Shown: one piece after another, positions 5,861 through 20,224 of the stretch
How the letters are laid out: each line of letters starts with the position of its first letter
Numbering within the stretch: position 1 is the stretch's first letter
Translations under genes and position numbers: made by a program
Notes under the pieces: generated by a model
The model's database searches: none
What the model saw: only the letters and a program-made list of their open reading frames with translations
Told to the model about the DNA's origin: nothing
Assembly: GCA_030693205.1 (NCBI GenBank)
Contig: JAUYBG010000015.1
Location: 1-37,044 of the forward strand
Direction of reading: 5' to 3'
Origin: a bacterium
Lineage (GTDB): Bacteria; Patescibacteriota; Minisyncoccia; JAHIHE01
DNA length: 37,044 bases

Positions 5861-6952
5861 TTACAGCTCTCTCATTGCCAATCCGACCGCAATGGAAAAA
5901 GAAGGCGCTATTTCTTTTAGAACTTGTCCGAGGCTTGGCGGATCATAGCTGATTCGCCCCCAAGGATCTCCGATGCTGACAGGCAAGTGCAAATTCTCCG
6001 AAAAATACTCGACCAATCCGGGCAAACGCGCGGAGCCGCCGCACAAAATGACTCTCTCGACTTTTTTATTGCTTTTATAAAAATATATGCTGTTTACCCT
6101 TGATATTTCGCTGGCGATCAGGCTGACCACCGGCAGAATTATCTGATTGACGGAACTGTCGTTTTCGCTTTTCGCGTTTAATAATCCTCTGTCTCTTTTC
6201 ATAATTTCCGCCCGCTTAAAATTGATATTCAGAGCATGAACCAGAGCTCTGGTGATCTCGTTTCCGCTGGTATCCAATCCCTTGTTAAGCATAACATAGC
6301 CGTTATCCACCACCAGAATATTGGTCACCTTGGAACCGATATCCACGATAATGGTCGGGGTCAGATCATCTCCAATAAGCGAACGAGACAAAGCGAATGA
6401 TTCGAGCTCGATCGCTTTTAAATTCAGATTGGCGGCTTGAGCGATTTCAGCATATTTATTCGCGACTTCTTTGGGAATAGCCACAAGAAGAACTTCAATT
6501 TTTCTGATTGGATCCTCTCCGCTAACCTCAGACTTGTTTTTCCTGCCGATAATATTCCAACCCAAGATCACTTCACTCACGGGAACGGGGATATATTGCC
6601 GCGCTTCATAAGGAATTGATTCTTCCACCTCCGAATAAGGCATATCGGGCAATTCCATTACCGCGGAAAAAGTGGAAAAAACGGGAACCGACAAAATTAC
6701 GTCCTTAGTAGTGACTCTCGATTTTTCAATCAGGTCTTTTAGTAAATCTACGACCTGGCCGCCCAAAAGATGTATGGAACTCGTCTGAAGCGTGCTTTGC
6801 AAGAGTTCTATTTTTCCATAGGTTTCAAGCAAGCCGTATGCCTCGAGCTTGACCCGCTCTTCTTCCAATCCAAGCTGCACTATCTTAACGCTGGAAGTTC
6901 CTATATCTATACCCGCGTAGCTTTTGTGTTTTGCTTTTAAAAAATCAAACAT
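5861..6952 (-). CDS. pilM: Type IV pilus actin-like ATPase PilM
   Basis: Cytoplasmic actin-fold (FtsA-like) protein that binds the INLxP tail of PilN and nucleates the alignment complex. The 363-residue length is typical. The phosphate-1 loop is YAGIDIGTSSVKIVQL (about 12-27), the SHS2/1C subdomain follows, and the second phosphate and adenosine motifs are visible as VDIGSKVTNILVVD (about 200) and ILCGGSARLPGLVEYF (near 310). It is the first pil gene in the transcript and comes 84 nt after hsp20; that spacer contains an imperfect inverted repeat. The ATG at 6952 is the natural start because the P1 loop follows immediately. Confidence 0.93.
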   Translation of the reverse strand: MFDFLKAKHKSYAGIDIGTSSVKIVQLGLEEERVKLEAYGLLETYGKIELLQSTLQTSSIHLLGGQVVDLLKDLIEKSRVTTKDVILSVPVFSTFSAVMELPDMPYSEVEESIPYEARQYIPVPVSEVILGWNIIGRKNKSEVSGEDPIRKIEVLLVAIPKEVANKYAEIAQAANLNLKAIELESFALSRSLIGDDLTPTIIVDIGSKVTNILVVDNGYVMLNKGLDTSGNEITRALVHALNINFKRAEIMKRDRGLLNAKSENDSSVNQIILPVVSLIASEISRVNSIYFYKSNKKVERVILCGGSARLPGLVEYFSENLHLPVSIGDPWGRISYDPPSLGQVLKEIAPSFSIAVGLAMREL

Positions 6953-6964
6953 GGAACTTTATTT

Positions 6965-7021
6965 ACCCTGTTAAATAATTTCGCTTACGGTGAAATCCCG
7001 CAAAACAGGATTTAACGGGGT
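6965..7021. repeat. Imperfect inverted repeat between hsp20 and pilM
   Basis: The arms 6965-6976 (ACCCTGTTAAAT) and 7010-7021 (ATTTAACGGGGT) pair over 12 bp with one G-T wobble. A second pairing, CCTGTT at 6967-6972 with AACAGG at 7004-7009, competes with it. In the minus-strand transcript it lies between the hsp20 stop and the pilM start. There is no T-tract, so it is not a standard terminator; it may be a processing or attenuation hairpin or a small palindromic repeat. Confidence 0.7.
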
Positions 7022-7036
7022 GAGTTTTATAACAAT

Positions 7037-7495
7037 TTATACCTCTTCGATCATTATTTTTTTTGTCTTGCTTCCGATCAATTTCAATAATGTTATTTTC
7101 AACACTCCTTTTTTGATGACCGCCTTTATATCATCGACATCCACTTCGCACGGCAAAATAATTGAACGGGAAAATGGCCCCCAAAAGCATTCGGAGACAA
7201 AATAATTGATATTTTCAGCCGAGTCTATGCTTTTTTCCCTTACGCCTTTTATCATAAGCACGTTGTTCGATACCGATATATTGATATTTTCCGGATTAAC
7301 TCCGCCGATGATCGATTCCACGACGATCGCAGAGCTTGTTTCGTAAACATCAACCGCCAATTGGCCTTCCTGGACTTCTTTGGGATTTTCTTCGGTTTTA
7401 AAAGGGGATTCTTCTTTAACCGCATCTTCAGCCTTCAAAGATGCTTTTTTCCCGCCGGAAATTTTTTCAAAAAAAGATTGTTTTTCTTTCACCAT
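7037..7495 (-). CDS. Small heat shock protein, Hsp20/alpha-crystallin family
   Basis: ATP-independent holdase chaperone of the cytoplasm. It is 152 residues long, with a variable, charged N-terminal arm (about 1-45) and an alpha-crystallin domain (about 46-152). Visible signatures are LAVDVYETSSAIVVES, the PENINISVSNNVLMIKGVRE strand pair, FGPFSRSIILP in the form WGPFSRSIILP, and the terminal GVLKITL strand. The C-terminal IxI oligomerisation tail is not evident after the domain, which is unusual and may limit large oligomers. It is the first gene behind a good promoter (7563-7591) and could share its transcript with the pil operon downstream. The ATG at 7495 has no Shine-Dalgarno. Confidence 0.88.
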   Translation of the reverse strand: MVKEKQSFFEKISGGKKASLKAEDAVKEESPFKTEENPKEVQEGQLAVDVYETSSAIVVESIIGGVNPENINISVSNNVLMIKGVREKSIDSAENINYFVSECFWGPFSRSIILPCEVDVDDIKAVIKKGVLKITLLKLIGSKTKKIMIEEV

Positions 7496-7562
7496 AAATT
7501 TTGCTTAAAAAAATTACTTATTGATCTGTGACTAACTTATTAATAAATCATAATCTTAGCAT

Positions 7563-13455: not shown

Positions 13456-16401
13456 TTATTGACTGGACATATTTGAACTGATCCTGCCAAATTCAATGAA
13501 CATCAGAGTGAATATGATGATCAAAATATACGGCGCGAGTATTGATATGTAATTTTTCTGATTGGGTTTGAAGTATTTGAGCAACAACGAATTGGACACC
13601 ACGGAAATAGAACTGAAAGCCATTGCCAGACCCGCCAATTCCGGCCTCAACACCAATCCGAGATCAACAAAAACCCTGGCCGCGATCGGTATGCCGATCA
13701 CGTTATAGAAAAGCGCGAAAAACATATTTTGTTTGATCTTCGCCATTGTTTCGCGGCTTAGGTCAAAAGCCGTCAGCACATCACGCAGATCATTCCTGAT
13801 GATCACGATTCCGCCGGTTTCCATCGCCACATCCGTGCCGCCGCCCATGGCAATCCCCAAATCCGCCTGCGCCAAAGCCGGCGCGTCATTGATGCCATCA
13901 CCCACCATCGCCACTTTCAAACTTTTTTCCTGTAGTTTTTTCACTTCATTGGCTTTGTCCTCGGGCAAAACTTCCGCTAAAACATTGGTAATGCCGACTT
14001 GCCTGGCGATCGCCTCCGCAGTCCGCCGATTATCGCCGGTGATCATATAAACCTCAATGCCTCTTTTTTGCAATCTTTGCACCGCTTCAAGAGAGCTTGA
14101 TTTCAAAGTATCCGCCACCGCCACCAGGCCCAAAATTTGTTTTTCATCCGCAAGAAGCATAACTGTTTTTCCCGCTTCTTCAAGCCTTTGCACTTTTCTC
14201 TCGGCTCTTTCCAGGCCTAATCCCAAATTTTCAGTGATCGATCTCCGATTGCCCAAAAAATATTTCTTTCCGCCAGCAACTCCTTCGACTCCGTGCCCGG
14301 GAATAGCTTTGAAATTTGCGACTTCCGGCAAGTCAATCGCTTCTTCCTCGGCGTATTTTATGATCGCTTCAGCCAAAGGATGTTCGGACAATTTTTCCAA
14401 TCCCCCGGCAATAGAAATAATTTCGTCCTCGTCCATCGCGCCAAGGCTCACAATATCCGTCACTTCCGGTTTTCCGTTGGTCAATGTTCCGGTTTTATCG
14501 AACACAATAGCCTGAATTTTATTGGCCGCTTCCAAAGGTTCGCCGCCCTTGATCAAAACCCCGTGCTCCGCGCCTTTGCCCACTCCCACCATGATCGCTG
14601 TCGGTGTAGCCAATCCCAAAGCGCACGGACAAGCAATAACAATTACCGAAGTAAAAGCCATCAAGCTGAAAGACAAACTGGCGCTCAAAAAGAAAAACCA
14701 ACCGATAAAAGTCAACGCCGCGAGCACCAAAACCGTCGGCACGAACCAAGCGGATATTTTGTCCGCCATGGCTTGGATCGGCGCTTTTGACCCTTGCGCG
14801 TCTTCGATCAAGCGAATGATCTGCGCCAAGGCGGTTTCATTGCCGACCTTAGTGGCTTCAAATTCAAAACTGCCGTGCTTGTTTATCGTCGCGCCGATTA
14901 TTTTATCGCCGATATTTTTTTCCACCGGAATGCTCTCGCCGGTGATCATCGATTCGTCTATTGACGAGCTTCCTTTGGTCAGAACCCCGTCCACCGGAAT
15001 TTTTTCGCCCGGGCGAACCACCACGATATCGCCCTTGACCACTTGCTCGATCGGTATATCAACCGCTTGTGCGCCGCGCATTACCCGCGCCGTCTTGGAC
15101 TGCAAACCCATCAATTTTCTTATCGCTTCGGAAGTCCTGCCTTTGGCTTTTGTCTCCAGCCATTTTCCCAAGATCACAAACGTAATAAGGAATGCGGCTG
15201 TTTCAAAATATAATTCAGGGATTTTTTCGCCGTTTATCCCGATCCACGAATTATTAGCGCTCGCGTAATTCCAGAATTGCCACAAACTATAAAAGAAAGC
15301 CGTGCTCGTGCCGATAGCGATCAAACTGTCCATATTGAAAGTTTTCATCCTAAGGCTGCTCCACATACCGCGGTAAAATCCGGCGCCGATCACGAACTGA
15401 ACCGGTATGGTCAGAAAAAGCGAGACAATGCCGATGTAAGGCATCAACACTTCCCGCCCGGGCAAAAAACTAAAAAAGTCAAATAGCATAAAATACAGCA
15501 TCGGCAAACTCAAGATCAAAGCGGAAAAAAATCTATTCCTATAATCAAGATTTTCCTGCTCTTTTCTTTTTCTCTCTTCTTCAGGATTGGAGTTGTCAGA
15601 AAGAGACGCTTTATATCCGGCCGCATTGACCGCCGCTATCAGGGCGCTGGCATTCGTTTTGGAACTGTCAAAAATAACTCTGGCTTTTTCAGCGGCAAAG
15701 TTCACATTCGCTTCTTTCACTCCCGGCACTTTTTGCAAACTTCTTTCAATGATATTGGCGCAGCTCGCGCAATGCATGCCGCCAACGACAAGGCTGGTCT
15801 GCTCATCTCCAGTTTTCCCGGCAATCGCGACATTTTCTTTAATATTTCCCTTGGCCTTAAACACAGAAGAAGGCGCGCCGGCATTATCGGAAGCGTCGCC
15901 GGAAAAAGCTCCCAATATCTGATTAATCTTTGAAGCATTGAATATGTCCTGAATTGTTTTCTCGACATCCTTCCGCCCTTCCGGTATTTCAAATTCCCCT
16001 CTTTTAAGATGATTTATTCTGCCTTTAAACTTCGGATTGCCGTCAGCTTGCGAAAACTCCCCATCGGCAACAACAGAAGACTCCAGTTTGATCTTTATCG
16101 GAGAATCTTTGCCAACAGTTTTTTTCTCGATAACAATGCTTCCTTTTTCGCCATCAATAACTTTTCCGCTGTCAGCGGCCGGATCGCGAACCACTGTTGC
16201 TTTATATCCGGCGCGAACGATCGCATTAACGATCATTTCCTCGCTTACTTTTCCTTCTTCCACTGCCACCTCTCCGATTTTCGCGGTAGAATCGATCTTG
16301 GCGGATATTACTCCACGAAGATCCAATAACTCCATTTCAATGATCTTTTCGCAACTTCCGCAATGCATTCCTTCGATCTGTACTTTTATAGTTTTTTCCA
16401 T
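13456..16401 (-). CDS. copA: Copper-exporting P1B-type ATPase CopA
   Basis: Membrane pump that exports Cu(I) with ATP. It is 981 residues long. Two N-terminal HMA domains carry GMHCGSC (C14/C17) and GMHCASC (C211/C214). The core has the TGES actuator loop (487-490), the intramembrane CPC metal site (591-593), the phosphorylation motif DKTGT (635-639), an HP locus (SEHPLAEA) and the [10 protein letters not shown] hinge. The M7/M8 region carries YN and [10 protein letters not shown], close to the YN and MxxSS ligands that define Cu(I) (P1B-1) pumps. About 120 residues between the HMA domains (80-200) have no recognisable motif and are longer than usual. It is the last gene of the copper operon, 16 nt after the small HMA gene. 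The ATG at 16401 precedes the first HMA directly. Confidence 0.95.
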
Positions 16402-16417
16402 AGATTTGTATTATTGT

Positions 16418-16618
16418 TTAAAACGATGCTGTTTTATCCGCTTTTGCCAAAGCGCTGGCTATTTCTTCTCGACTGATCTCTTTATCCGCTTCAACCACAG
16501 CCGCTCCGTTGCTTTCCACTTCTACATTTTTTACGCCCGGTATTTTTTTCAACGCCAAACTGCTTAGCTTAATGCAAGCATCGCAAGTTATATCATTGAT
16601 TTTAAATTTTGTTTTCAT
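16418..16618 (-). CDS. Small heavy-metal-associated (HMA) domain protein
   Basis: A 66-residue stand-alone HMA fold, the type of protein that carries copper to a P1B ATPase. The binding loop reads DITCDACIK with CxxC at residues 11-14; the usual GM before the first Cys is replaced by DI-T, so affinity or specificity may differ from CopZ. Strands KFKINDI and VKNVEVES and a GxxxV-type helix follow the standard beta-alpha-beta pattern. It lies between the HMA-DsbD-cupredoxin gene (13-nt gap) and copA (16-nt gap), which fits a copper chaperone delivering to CopA. This role is inferred from context. Confidence 0.82.
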   Translation of the reverse strand: MKTKFKINDITCDACIKLSSLALKKIPGVKNVEVESNGAAVVEADKEISREEIASALAKADKTASF

Positions 16619-16631
16619 ATTTTTTTATTAT

Positions 16632-18392
16632 TTAATTGATTACTTTAATTACTCCTCTGGGCACGCCCATGGCACAGGTAATATTATAATCTCCCGCAGT
16701 TTGCGGCGTAAAACTCAAAACCATTTTCGTGCCGCCTTGGAGATATTGAGCGCTATTATACAACCCCGACACCATTAAAGAACTCATACAACCCCGGCCG
16801 CTCTCTTTCACGTCGATCTCAAACCGAACCGGCGCTCCCCTTTTAACTTCGAACCTGTTCGGCGAAATATCTTTAGTTAGAGTATATTCCGCTTTTATCA
16901 GCTGTTCATTGTTATTATTCACCGCAGAAGTAGTTGTCGAATCAATAGGTTTTCTAGCGCCGCCTCCACAGCCTCCGCCACCGCCGCCAGAATTGCTCGT
17001 ATCAATCGTTCCCGCCGCGCTTTGAACGGCAATATTCGTACCTGCCTCGACCACAATAAATTTTCCCCTATACATTCCCATTGAACAGGAAAAAGAAATT
17101 TCGCCGGTTTCCGTCGGCACGAATTCAATGATATTTTCGCCTTTTACAAGACCCTTGCTTATTCCGTATTTGGGCATCACCAAAGAACTGGCGCAAGAAA
17201 ATTGATTCGTGGAAGTAATTATCCATTTAACTTTTTTTCCTTTTTCCACCGTAAAAATATTCGGCGAATATCCTGAACTGCTTTGAGTCATTCTTACTTC
17301 CTGAACATCGGACGAAACAACAACTCCCGCATCAGCACCTGGCGCCTTTCCCTGAAATACCAACTGGCTGCCATTCGTAATATTCACCCAGCCCAATATG
17401 ATAACCGCGAGGCCGGTAGCGGCAAAAAATATTCTCGCATTCTTACCTTTAAAAATCGAGGCCAAGCCGCCGATTCCCAACAACCCCGGAGCAGTCCCCA
17501 AAGCGAACAGCGACATGATCAGAGCGCCGTCGACAAAACTCCCGCTTGAAACCGCGTAAAGCTGCATCACTTGCGTAAAACCGCAAGGCAGAAAAAAAGT
17601 CAAAGCGCCGGTGATAAATGATCCCTTGTGGCTATATTCTTTTTGCTCTTTATTGATTCCCAAAAACTTTGAAATTCCCTTGGGGAGCGAGATCGATCTT
17701 TCTTTCAAAGCCGGAAAAATTTCTATCAATTTTAAGCCCAAGAATATCATCACCCCGCCGATAATTATCGTCATTAATCCCAAAGTGCCGGCTGACGGCT
17801 GGACTACCGAGCCGAGTAAAGCAAGCACTCCGCCCAAAAAACCGAAACCCAGAATTCGCCCCAGATTAAAATATAAATGCGGCGTAAATTTTTGTTTGGC
17901 GGAAATTTCCGGATGCGCTTCGGCATGGCGCGCCGAAATGCTTAAAACCAATCCGCCAACCAAAGCCATGCAGGTGGAAATGCCGGCGACCAAGCCCACC
18001 ATCAGCACTACCAGAAGGCTAGCGTTTTCCGTGTTAACATCGAGACTGAACAAACCGAATGATTTAGCGGCAAAATATAAAACAAATAATATCAAAAATC
18101 CGTATGATAAATAAATATAATCATTTTTATCCCGGGACAGCCACTCCAGCTTATTTTTATACCCAATCTCATAGCCCGTATCTTTGACGGTCTGCCGGAT
18201 ATCTTCGCTGATCCGGTCGACGAATTCTTTTGCTCCCGCTCCCTCTTTTTTATTGAAATATACTTCGGCTTTTCCCGTTTTATAATTAGCCTCTATCTTT
18301 TTTACGCCGGGAATATCTTTCAAGTTTTCTTCTATCAATAATTCACAACTCCGGCAATGCATTCCTTTTATTGGCACAATGATTTTAATCAT
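16632..18392 (-). CDS. HMA / DsbD-like (TauE-SafE/UreH-type) membrane / double cupredoxin-like fusion
   Basis: A 586-residue fusion probably moving or storing copper across the membrane. Residues 1-75 are an HMA domain with GMHCRSC (C13/C16). About 95-345 is a six-to-seven-helix DsbD_2/UreH-type membrane domain with membrane cysteines C141 (AGISTCMALVGG) and C270 (FFLPCGF). Residues about 377-448 and 509-586 are two related cupredoxin-like domains, each opening with SPNxFxVxxG and each carrying the same ligand pattern: C-x-SSL-x-M (C400...M406; C535...M540) and C-x-MG (C436/M438; C573/M575). A glycine-rich linker with a Cys (about 469-478) joins them. It is the first gene of the copper operon, directly behind the operator-covered promoter. 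The domain reading is clear; the exact substrate is inferred. Confidence 0.88.
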   Translation of the reverse strand: MIKIIVPIKGMHCRSCELLIEENLKDIPGVKKIEANYKTGKAEVYFNKKEGAGAKEFVDRISEDIRQTVKDTGYEIGYKNKLEWLSRDKNDYIYLSYGFLILFVLYFAAKSFGLFSLDVNTENASLLVVLMVGLVAGISTCMALVGGLVLSISARHAEAHPEISAKQKFTPHLYFNLGRILGFGFLGGVLALLGSVVQPSAGTLGLMTIIIGGVMIFLGLKLIEIFPALKERSISLPKGISKFLGINKEQKEYSHKGSFITGALTFFLPCGFTQVMQLYAVSSGSFVDGALIMSLFALGTAPGLLGIGGLASIFKGKNARIFFAATGLAVIILGWVNITNGSQLVFQGKAPGADAGVVVSSDVQEVRMTQSSSGYSPNIFTVEKGKKVKWIITSTNQFSCASSLVMPKYGISKGLVKGENIIEFVPTETGEISFSCSMGMYRGKFIVVEAGTNIAVQSAAGTIDTSNSGGGGGGCGGGARKPIDSTTTSAVNNNNEQLIKAEYTLTKDISPNRFEVKRGAPVRFEIDVKESGRGCMSSLMVSGLYNSAQYLQGGTKMVLSFTPQTAGDYNITCAMGVPRGVIKVIN

Positions 18393-18429: not shown

Positions 18430-18472
18430 AATACCTACTATAGATTATAGTAGGTATTCAACTCTTTGTAAA
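18430..18472 (-). promoter_or_regulatory. Copper-operon promoter with overlapping BlaI/CopY-type operator
   Basis: On the minus strand TTTACA (18472-18467), 17-nt spacer, perfect TATAAT (18449-18444). A 13-bp perfect inverted repeat, AATACCTACTATA (18430-18442) and TATAGTAGGTATT (18446-18458), covers the -10 box. Its core TACTA-N7-TAGTA (18436-18452) matches the operator at 20078-20094. Repressor bound here would block RNA polymerase directly. Confidence 0.88.
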
Positions 18473-18493
18473 GGGTTAGTTATCCCCAGGCGA

Positions 18494-19573
18494 TTAATCC
18501 GCTCTGCACGTAGAATTTTCGTGAAAATCGGCATTGTCCAGATTATTAAAAATATCGCTGCTCGTGTTGCCGTTTTTTTGCTGGCTGATCAAACTGCAAG
18601 CCAAATCGCCTTCCGAGCCGGCAGGCGCAACACAGCTCGCGATTTTATGCATTTCAAATGCTTTAGTGCTGCTGGAAAAAACAAAAATAAACATAAGCGA
18701 GGCCGCCGCCAATCCCAAAGAACCAATGATCAAGCTTTTATCCAGAAATTTAAGTTTTGGGATATAAGTTTCATCGCTTAATCGGCTGGCTCTTTCCTCG
18801 ATCGCCGGAGTGAAAAAGGACAAAGACGAACCGGTCATATATCTTAAATTTTCTTCCTGTTCGGAAATTTTAAGTATAGCGCTGGCCAAGCAAGACCGCT
18901 CTGCCGAATTCCCGCTCGCCTTTTCGTCCGCCGCCAGCTCCGAAAAAGTGAAATATTTTTTCGCGGAAATTTTAAAACCGGGAAGGAAAAAAAATATGTG
19001 ATGAAAATATTTGATAATAAATACTTTAAAAGGCTCGTAAGAAATCATATGCTGCGCTTCATGGATCAGCACAGCTTCGAGTTCATCCTTATCAAGCATG
19101 CTAATTAAAGCTCGCGAAATGCAAATTTTTGGATGCCAAAAACCAAAGCAAAATACCGCTGATTCAGGATTGTTTATTTCAATAATCCTCGCTCCATCCA
19201 AATCCAGCGCTTTTATCGCCGCCTTTAATTTTACCGAGTGTTCCGCGCCGGCAAACGATAAATAATACGCGATATATTTTTTTGTCTGCGAAATCAATTT
19301 TACTAATTTATACAAAGAATATAAAATAAAAATTCCGATCCCGATCCCAAAAAAAATAACTGTCCCAAAAATAACCGGATGCATCGATAAAAATTGCGCC
19401 ATATCCGCGCAACCGCAAGCGTTAATTATTTTGTGCATTAATACATTTATATACAAGCCGGATAATTGGTAGGTTTTAAAAGACAAAAAAAACATTGCTA
19501 TAACTGCAATAATAACCATAAGAATGGTTTGATAAAACGCGCGATTTGTTTTTAAGGCAAAAATATTGCTCAT
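18494..19573 (-). CDS. M56-family (BlaR1/MecR1-like) membrane metalloprotease, predicted sensor
   Basis: Predicted intramembrane or membrane-proximal zinc protease that inactivates the adjacent repressor on signal. Numbered from the ATG at 19573 it has 359 residues. Transmembrane helices lie at about 16-31, 66-88, 184-199 and 281-300. The zinc site is HEAQH (171-175) with the third ligand in SELAADE (E212). It lacks the penicillin-binding sensor domain of BlaR1. The loop between the first two helices (32-65), predicted to face outside, has CGC (53-55) with M46, H47, M58, M64 and H65. The C-terminal tail (303-359) has M308, H309, C314, C326, H351 and C356. These are soft metal ligands, so it may sense copper itself. 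A TTG start 14 codons upstream is possible but less likely. It follows the repressor gene. Confidence 0.85.
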   Translation of the reverse strand: MSNIFALKTNRAFYQTILMVIIAVIAMFFLSFKTYQLSGLYINVLMHKIINACGCADMAQFLSMHPVIFGTVIFFGIGIGIFILYSLYKLVKLISQTKKYIAYYLSFAGAEHSVKLKAAIKALDLDGARIIEINNPESAVFCFGFWHPKICISRALISMLDKDELEAVLIHEAQHMISYEPFKVFIIKYFHHIFFFLPGFKISAKKYFTFSELAADEKASGNSAERSCLASAILKISEQEENLRYMTGSSLSFFTPAIEERASRLSDETYIPKLKFLDKSLIIGSLGLAAASLMFIFVFSSSTKAFEMHKIASCVAPAGSEGDLACSLISQQKNGNTSSDIFNNLDNADFHENSTCRAD

Positions 19574-19673
19574 AATATTACTGTACTTTGGATATTTTGA
19601 CAGCGTATCAGCCAAATATTAAGAACTGATGAAAAACATCGGCTCGACAGGTAAAACAAAAGCGAAGCCATGC

Positions 19674-20060
19674 TTACTTTATTAATTTTTTTAGTTTATT
19701 CTTCCACTCCTCTGATTTCGGCGCGCTTGATGTTTCTATAACATCCAAAAATTGCGCCACCGCCACATCGCCGTATTCTTTTAGAAAACCTTTGATTATT
19801 TTCTCCGATTTTTTCTCAATAAAAGTTTTTTTATCGTTTACCGGTTCATAGACAAAAGCCCCGCTTTTATTCATCTTTCGGACCAGAACGCCTTTTTCGT
19901 ACAGGCGCGACATCACGGTCATGACCGTAGTGTAAGCGATCTTCTTTTTCTTTTTCAATTCTTTCAAAACATCCCTGACGCAAGTCTGTCCATTGCACCA
20001 GACTATCTCCATTATTTCCGATTCCGAATCGCTTAATATTTTAATGCTGTTTATCGCCAT
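19674..20060 (-). CDS. BlaI/MecI/CopY-family transcriptional repressor
   Basis: Winged-helix repressor of 128 residues, the normal BlaI/MecI length. The helix-turn-helix core SDSESEIMEIVW (10-21), TVMTVMSRLYEKGVLVRK (about 50-66) and the wing GAFVYEPV are typical. The C-terminal half is a dimerisation helix bundle. It lacks the CxCxxxxCxC zinc/copper site of CopY, so it probably does not sense metal itself but is relieved by the M56 protease encoded next, as in BlaI. Cys 23 and 28 are the only cysteines and lie in the DNA-binding half. An operator overlaps its own promoter, so autoregulation is expected. The ATG at 20060 is 18 nt from that operator. Confidence 0.93.
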   Translation of the reverse strand: MAINSIKILSDSESEIMEIVWCNGQTCVRDVLKELKKKKKIAYTTVMTVMSRLYEKGVLVRKMNKSGAFVYEPVNDKKTFIEKKSEKIIKGFLKEYGDVAVAQFLDVIETSSAPKSEEWKNKLKKLIK

Positions 20061-20075
20061 AAATATCTTCGTTTA

Positions 20076-20118
20076 TATACTACATAGAGTAGTATAACAT
20101 ACTTTTTTAAAAAAGCAA
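20076..20118 (-). promoter_or_regulatory. Repressor-operon promoter with overlapping operator
   Basis: On the minus strand TTGCTT (20118-20113), 16-nt spacer, TATACT (20096-20091). The inverted repeat TATACTAC (20076-20083) and GTAGTATA (20089-20096) with a 5-nt centre includes the -10 box. Its core TACTA-N7-TAGTA (20078-20094) is the same as that of the copper-operon operator and close to the staphylococcal mec/bla operator TACTA-N6-TAGTA as I recall it. Confidence 0.85.
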
Positions 20119-20127
20119 ATGCTTAAT

Positions 20128-20161
20128 CAAATTAAAACCAGCCTCAATTTCTTGAGACTGG
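20128..20161 (-). terminator. Rho-independent terminator of the 265-aa gene
   Basis: On the minus strand CCAGTCTCAA, loop GAAA, TTGAGGCTGG (20161-20138) forms a 10-bp stem with one G-T pair, followed by TTTTAATTT. It ends the transcript of the gene at 20225-21022 just before the repressor promoter. Confidence 0.88.
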
Positions 20162-20224
20162 TTTTAAAAACTTATCTAACACGTGAACAATCGAGGAAGA
20201 TCATTCAGCGCTACTTGTACTGAG

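Follow-up and report, generated by a model that had tools for sequence, protein, structure and literature searches.

The stretch of DNA analysed here (the window, 37,044 nucleotides) comes from a Patescibacteria-type bacterium with a tiny genome and carries a gene pair encoding a BlaI/MecI-family repressor and an M56 membrane protease beside a set of copper-export genes. An initial annotation of the locus proposed a copper-responsive system in which the protease relays the signal to the repressor. The locus thus raises two questions, namely whether the pair controls the copper operon and, if so, which signal it would convey. The features that bear on these questions are the following, in window coordinates.

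13456 to 16401, minus strand: Cu+-translocating P1B-type ATPase (CopA) with two HMA domains (TIGR01511, 632 bits, cut-off 397).
16418 to 16618, minus strand: small HMA (CopZ-like) protein, 66 residues (PF00403).
16632 to 18392, minus strand: 586-residue protein with an HMA domain, a DsbD_2 transmembrane domain and two cupredoxin-like domains (PF00403, PF13386, PF13473).
18430 to 18458, no strand assigned: operator 2, a 29-bp inverted repeat, AATACCTACTATA-GAT-TATAGTAGGTATT, covering the -10 box of the copper promoter and kept in the related genomes G517 and G651.
18436 to 18452: core of operator 2, TACTA-N7-TAGTA, TACTATAGATTATAGTA.
18444 to 18472, minus strand: copper operon promoter, TTTACA-N17-TATAAT, 11/12 in a consensus scan, with the same geometry in relatives.
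18494 to 19573, minus strand: M56 (BlaR1-type) membrane metalloprotease, 359 residues, HEAQH motif (PF05569, 49.6 bits).
19674 to 20060, minus strand: BlaI/MecI-family winged-helix repressor, 128 residues, with no CxC metal cluster (PF03965).
20078 to 20094, no strand assigned: operator 1, TACTA-N7-TAGTA, TACTACATAGAGTAGTA, overlapping the -10 box of the blaI-M56 promoter, with a counterpart 5' of the BlaI gene in loci L068 (G517) and L107 (G651).
20091 to 20118, minus strand: putative repressor-protease promoter, TTGCTT-N16-TATACT, read from the sequence.
20132 to 20167, minus strand: terminator-like hairpin between the upstream gene and the blaI promoter.

The operon behind operator 2 consists exclusively of copper genes. 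CopA possesses the CPC, YN and MxxSS motifs, which together with its subfamily score identify it as a P1B-1 Cu+ ATPase, and the HMA-DsbD_2-cupredoxin protein is 69-72% identical to its counterparts in L107 and L068. The CopZ-like protein matches the NCBIfam CopZ-type models, but under their cut-off. No match to a CsoR-type repressor (PF02583) was found in the window's genome.

The best-scoring promoter of the region in the consensus scan places the -35 box of the copper operon (TTTACA) at 18472-18467 and its -10 box (TATAAT) at 18449-18444, entirely within the operator 2 palindrome. The putative blaI promoter, which is not among the results of that scan and was read from the sequence, has a -35 box (TTGCTT) at 20118-20113 and a -10 box (TATACT) at 20096-20091 that overlaps operator 1. 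Both palindromes of the initial annotation were recovered at 18436-18452 and 20078-20094, each on a -10 box as had been claimed, and the first indeed forms part of an inverted repeat with perfect 13-bp arms (18430-18442 and 18446-18458) around a 3-nt centre. The dyads span 17 bp, again with a 3-nt centre, and read TACTATA-N3-TATAGTA in the window and TACTACA-N3-TGTAGTA in relatives. Exact matches to TACTA-N7-TAGTA number two in the whole genome (1,002,048 bp in 23 contigs), both at this locus, and sites with one mismatch were fewer than for a reversed control pattern, giving no sign of a wider regulon in this genome. It is hardly credible that the palindromes arose by chance or are terminator-like elements that share no regulator: the core is short and the genome AT-rich, but the only two exact sites fall at the two promoters, and we reject a chance origin on this genome-wide count together with the conservation and the control palindromes described below.

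To assess the conservation of this arrangement, the HMA-DsbD protein was searched against 380 genomes from the phylum, 180 of which contain relatives of it, and 62 copper loci were read (60 of the best, together with L068 and the window). The BlaI-M56 pair lies directly upstream of the copper operon in three of the 62, those of the window, G517 and G651, whose proteases form one clade with 100/98 support in the protease tree. Each of these three loci has exactly two exact sites, one before blaI and one before the copper operon, and G517 and G651 share the order site-BlaI-M56-site-(CsoR)-HMA/DsbD-CopZ-CopA. Hence the neighbourhood and both operators, which the initial annotation had suggested looking for in relatives, are kept in these two genomes. 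The outer operator arms, AATACCTACTA and TAGTAGGTATT, are identical in all three although the window protease is only about 40% identical to those of G517 and G651, and a T-to-C change in the inner arm of the latter two (TATA to TACA) is paired with an A-to-G change on the opposite arm. The other 59 copper loci contain neither the pair nor a site in 737,475 bp; about four of them end within 0.9 kb upstream, so the absence of the pair is uncertain in those. With 59 of the 62 loci lacking the pair, BlaI-M56 wiring of this type of copper operon is rare.

The copper operon of the two closest relatives, G517 and G651, opens with a gene for a CsoR-like protein (PF02583, 66.6 and 59.6 bits), so that a CsoR-like gene (L068:10062-10337 and L107:6524-6796) stands inside a copper operon under a BlaI-type operator. 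Both proteins have Cys, His and Cys at the positions expected for Cu-CsoR, which we take to be its ligand pattern. With such a repressor in their operons, CsoR may sense copper in these two genomes, and its combination with the BlaI-type operator is possibly a two-layer copper control.

The promoter geometry recurs across phyla, well beyond these three genomes. A BlaI alignment scan of 84,980 species genomes, combined with earlier loci, yielded 73 non-duplicate BlaI-M56 pairs, of which 41 have a GC content below 0.58; in this lower-GC subset exact sites with a spacer of 6-8 were counted. An exact site was found near the blaI start in 24 of the 41 (controls, about 1) and within about 300 nt after the M56 gene in 29, where random windows gave about 1.2 and same-letter control palindromes at most 1. 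Of 33 downstream sites, 17 are preceded by a TTGACA-like box (no more than one mismatch) whose first base lies exactly 20 nt upstream of the site, and for 3 more the distance is 21 nt; two Chloroflexi loci (L198 and L204) are included. With the -35 box exactly 20 nt upstream, the operator covers the -10 box and is therefore placed to block it. Because the sites are conserved with the pair, fall on the promoter in this manner and are absent where the pair is absent, the sequence comparisons strongly support a wiring in which one repressor acts on two operators, with the copper operon under operator 2.

Ahead of the same promoters, a DnaA-box-like motif, TGTGGATAA, occurs 35-37 nt before the post-M56 operator, and 15-17 nt before the -35 box, in L068, L107, L069, L070 and L168, being partly coding in L068 and L107. 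The window has TGGGGATAA at 18476-18485, with one mismatch to this motif and the same spacing as in the five other loci.

The repressor itself belongs to the Penicillinase_R superfamily (PF03965, 82.5 bits against a gathering score of 22.6), and a profile search matches it to MecI/BlaI structures. The NCBIfam BlaI/MecI models gave 28-36 bits against cut-offs of 180-250; with the curated models so far under cut-off and copper genes in the operon, we rejected assignment to the BlaI/MecI repressors of beta-lactam resistance. Its top NCBIfam match is CopY (TIGR02698), at 54.2 bits and thus under the cut-off of 121.95. This match, and the BlaI-family fold that it has in common with CopY, would be expected if the repressor sensed copper directly and the protease were an accessory. 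We consider such direct sensing very improbable, however, since the only cysteines of the repressor are C22 and C27, no CxC motif is present, the G517 and G651 orthologues are cysteine-free, and the spacing of the dyads is unlike that of the cop box of CopY systems, RNYKACANNTGTMRNY (PMC7253601), whose TACANNTGTA centre the window dyads lack. Identification as CopY was rejected because of the low score, the lack of CxC motifs and the spacing of the dyads. The earlier statement that the repressor lacks a CopY-type cysteine cluster is thus borne out, and its sequence supports the view that it does not sense copper in the manner of CopY.

If the repressor is not the sensor, attention turns to the protease, whose most likely start codon is the ATG at 19573 (359 residues), not the TTG at 19615. 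Its residues H171, E172 and H175 of the HExxH motif, and E212 and D216 downstream, are invariant among 32 relatives. A Pfam search returned the M56 domain and a weaker M48 match and no other domain, hence no penicillin-binding or transpeptidase domain, in agreement with the initial annotation, and the blaR1_generic model scored 24.4 bits against a cut-off of 400. With the sensor domain missing, sensing of beta-lactams by the protease was ruled out, and the conclusion that it is not a beta-lactam sensor is supported. On a broader reading the pair would respond, like BlaR1/MecR1, to a different signal (cell-wall damage or an antibiotic), and its operator would have captured the copper operon. 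This reading draws on the kinship to BlaI/BlaR1 and on the different targets of M56-BlaI pairs in different lineages. It appears improbable to us, given that the penicillin-binding domain is absent, that the extracytoplasmic segments are short and rich in Cys, Met and His, and that the targets are repeatedly related to metals or thiols.

An AlphaFold model of the protease (mean pLDDT 82, pTM 0.75) comprises two long helices at the N-terminus (4-53 and 66-105), the protease core, a C-terminal helix at 279-312 and a disordered tail. Fold comparison placed ZMPSTE24/Ste24p and BlaR1 among the best matches with modest scores (BlaR1, E about 5e-3), and a direct sequence search against solved structures gave no match. 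In BlaR1 the protease core is cytoplasmic; taking the same orientation here, the 53-65 loop and the C-terminal tail would face outward. These predicted extracytoplasmic segments contain C53, C55, M58, M64 and H65 in a CGC-Met-Met-His loop, and M308, H309 and C314 in the tail. All of these residues, and H47, are invariant in the copper-clade proteases. In the nearest redox-linked proteases C53 and C55 are kept, some also retain H65, and three (L065, L067 and L168) have His at position 58. This difference between the clades suggests that the M56 protease is a metal or thiol sensor whose ligand set has shifted between them. As a separate observation, the window protease stops a few codons before its G517 and G651 relatives (18494 region), with TAA in place of the TAT of G517.

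The BlaI-M56 pair probably acts as a membrane-protease/repressor switch for copper export, in which a copper-activated protease inactivates the repressor. At low copper, a repressor dimer would bind both operators and keep both transcription units off. Excess extracytoplasmic Cu(I) would bind a Cys/Met/His site to which the loop linking membrane helices 1 and 2 (C53, C55, M58, M64, H65) and the tail (M308, H309, C314) both contribute, although this joint site remains a proposal, the tail being disordered in the model. Binding of Cu(I) would activate the cytoplasmic metalloprotease domain, repressor cleavage would follow as in BlaR1/BlaI and PetP/PetR, and loss of the repressor would derepress the copper operon and the blaI-M56 pair. 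Copper could then be bound at the surface by the cupredoxin-like, DsbD_2/HMA protein, chaperoned by CopZ and exported by CopA, until falling copper and newly accumulated repressor restored repression. That copper is the signal and that the repressor is proteolysed we infer from the target genes, the residue pattern and the precedent of PetR/PetP.

The targets of other pairs bear on the choice of signal. In other lineages the same operator immediately precedes HMA-DsbD/CopA genes (L227, L073) or a DsbA-led operon that includes HMA-DsbD/CopZ/CopA genes (L190, L072, L174). The sister pairs, with matching operator and promoter geometry, control operons for extracytoplasmic thiol-redox proteins (thioredoxin/DsbA, GILT-like and DUF1573-cupredoxin), and more distant pairs face SCO1 (L198), FtrD-like (L179 and L195, the former with a MacB/FtsX-type permease) or MerB (L171) genes. 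On the protease tree the copper label changes at least four times on well supported branches, and linkage to copper genes has therefore been gained or lost repeatedly. A search of the window's genome for a sister-type thiol-redox operon, made with one of its proteins and with no positive control, gave no match.

Since sister pairs govern thiol-redox operons, redox stress of the envelope must be taken seriously as a competing signal. The protease might sense envelope thiol/disulfide stress or soft metals generally, with copper export being induced because copper is one cause of it; the SCO1, FtrD-like and MerB neighbours of the distant pairs fit this, as does the CGC loop, which both the copper clade and the redox clade possess and whose cysteines could form a redox-active pair. 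We judge this unlikely on balance, but far from negligible, as M58, M64 and M308 are specific to the copper clade and point to a metal site, the operon in the window holds copper genes only, and the PetP precedent concerns copper. Of the copper-responsive relay proposed initially, then, the wiring is strongly supported, and copper as its signal is put in doubt by the sister pairs with the same operator on thiol-redox operons. Both kinds of target would be accommodated by a BlaI-M56 module that recurs in Patescibacteria. Its small M56 protease would directly sense Cu(I) or thiol state outside the cytoplasm by means of the Cys/Met/His loop and tail; the copper-export and thiol-redox versions would differ in their ligand set, and each would control the matching operon through one conserved operator placed on the -10 box. 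We advance this generalization tentatively, as a plausible view that may well prove wrong.

Three further observations concern these neighbouring operons. In redox-type operons one or two different proteins per operon share a C-terminal tag, ending exactly in MVGGC (12 cases; L065:6306-6662 and 6720-7520, and in L067, L168, L069, L070, L071 and L074), and a VGGC ending occurs in 1 of 3330 ORFs of background loci. The same type of operon encodes a CE(F/Y)CCG...CGCAHS protein family (L065:6720-7520, L069:11188-11937, L070:7181-7957), the one member scanned having no Pfam match. In L171:2537-4390, a KSB1 BlaI-M56 pair has operators on both sides, and the gene after it codes for a protein with an alkylmercury lyase (MerB) domain.

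No paper describing control of copper export by a BlaI-M56 pair was found in the open literature, with subscription journals mostly outside the scope of the search. If the favoured reading is true, this would be the first protease-repressor switch of its type on copper export. The operator/promoter layout (TTGACA, 20 nt, TACTAC-N-GTAGTA) predicts targets for many BlaI-M56 pairs whose signals are unknown, and the candidate sensing residues named above can be mutated.

Among known systems, BlaI/BlaR1 and MecI/MecR1 likewise join a BlaI-family repressor to an M56 HExxH protease, with palindromic operators at the shared and the target promoters, but the window protease lacks the penicillin-binding sensor and the targets are copper genes rather than beta-lactamase or PBP2a. 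CopY/CopR resembles the window in having a BlaI-family repressor before a copper ATPase operon, and differs in the CxC cluster and dyad spacing; the window repressor scores under the CopY cut-off and has a protease partner. The CsoR family enters through the gene that leads the orthologous operons of G517 and G651, with none found in the window's genome. The closest precedent is PetR/PetP of Synechocystis sp. PCC 6803, a copper-dependent BlaI-like/M56 relay that is already known: a BlaI-family regulator is paired with a BlaR1-family membrane protease, loss of PetR requires both PetP and copper, and the regulon comprises four genes (PMC7896320; PMC13421787). According to a 2023 review, PetR/PetP does not drive a copper-homeostasis response, and what BlaR homologues do in other marine bacteria is still an open question (PMC10141476). 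The window pair resembles PetR/PetP in placing a BlaI-like regulator beside an M56 protease that lacks a penicillin-binding domain; PetR/PetP controls petE/petJ and two further genes, whereas the window pair faces a copper-export operon. If our reading holds, copper-dependent repressor proteolysis would not be confined to the plastocyanin/cytochrome c6 switch of cyanobacteria but would also govern copper export, in minimal-genome bacteria for which few regulators are known.
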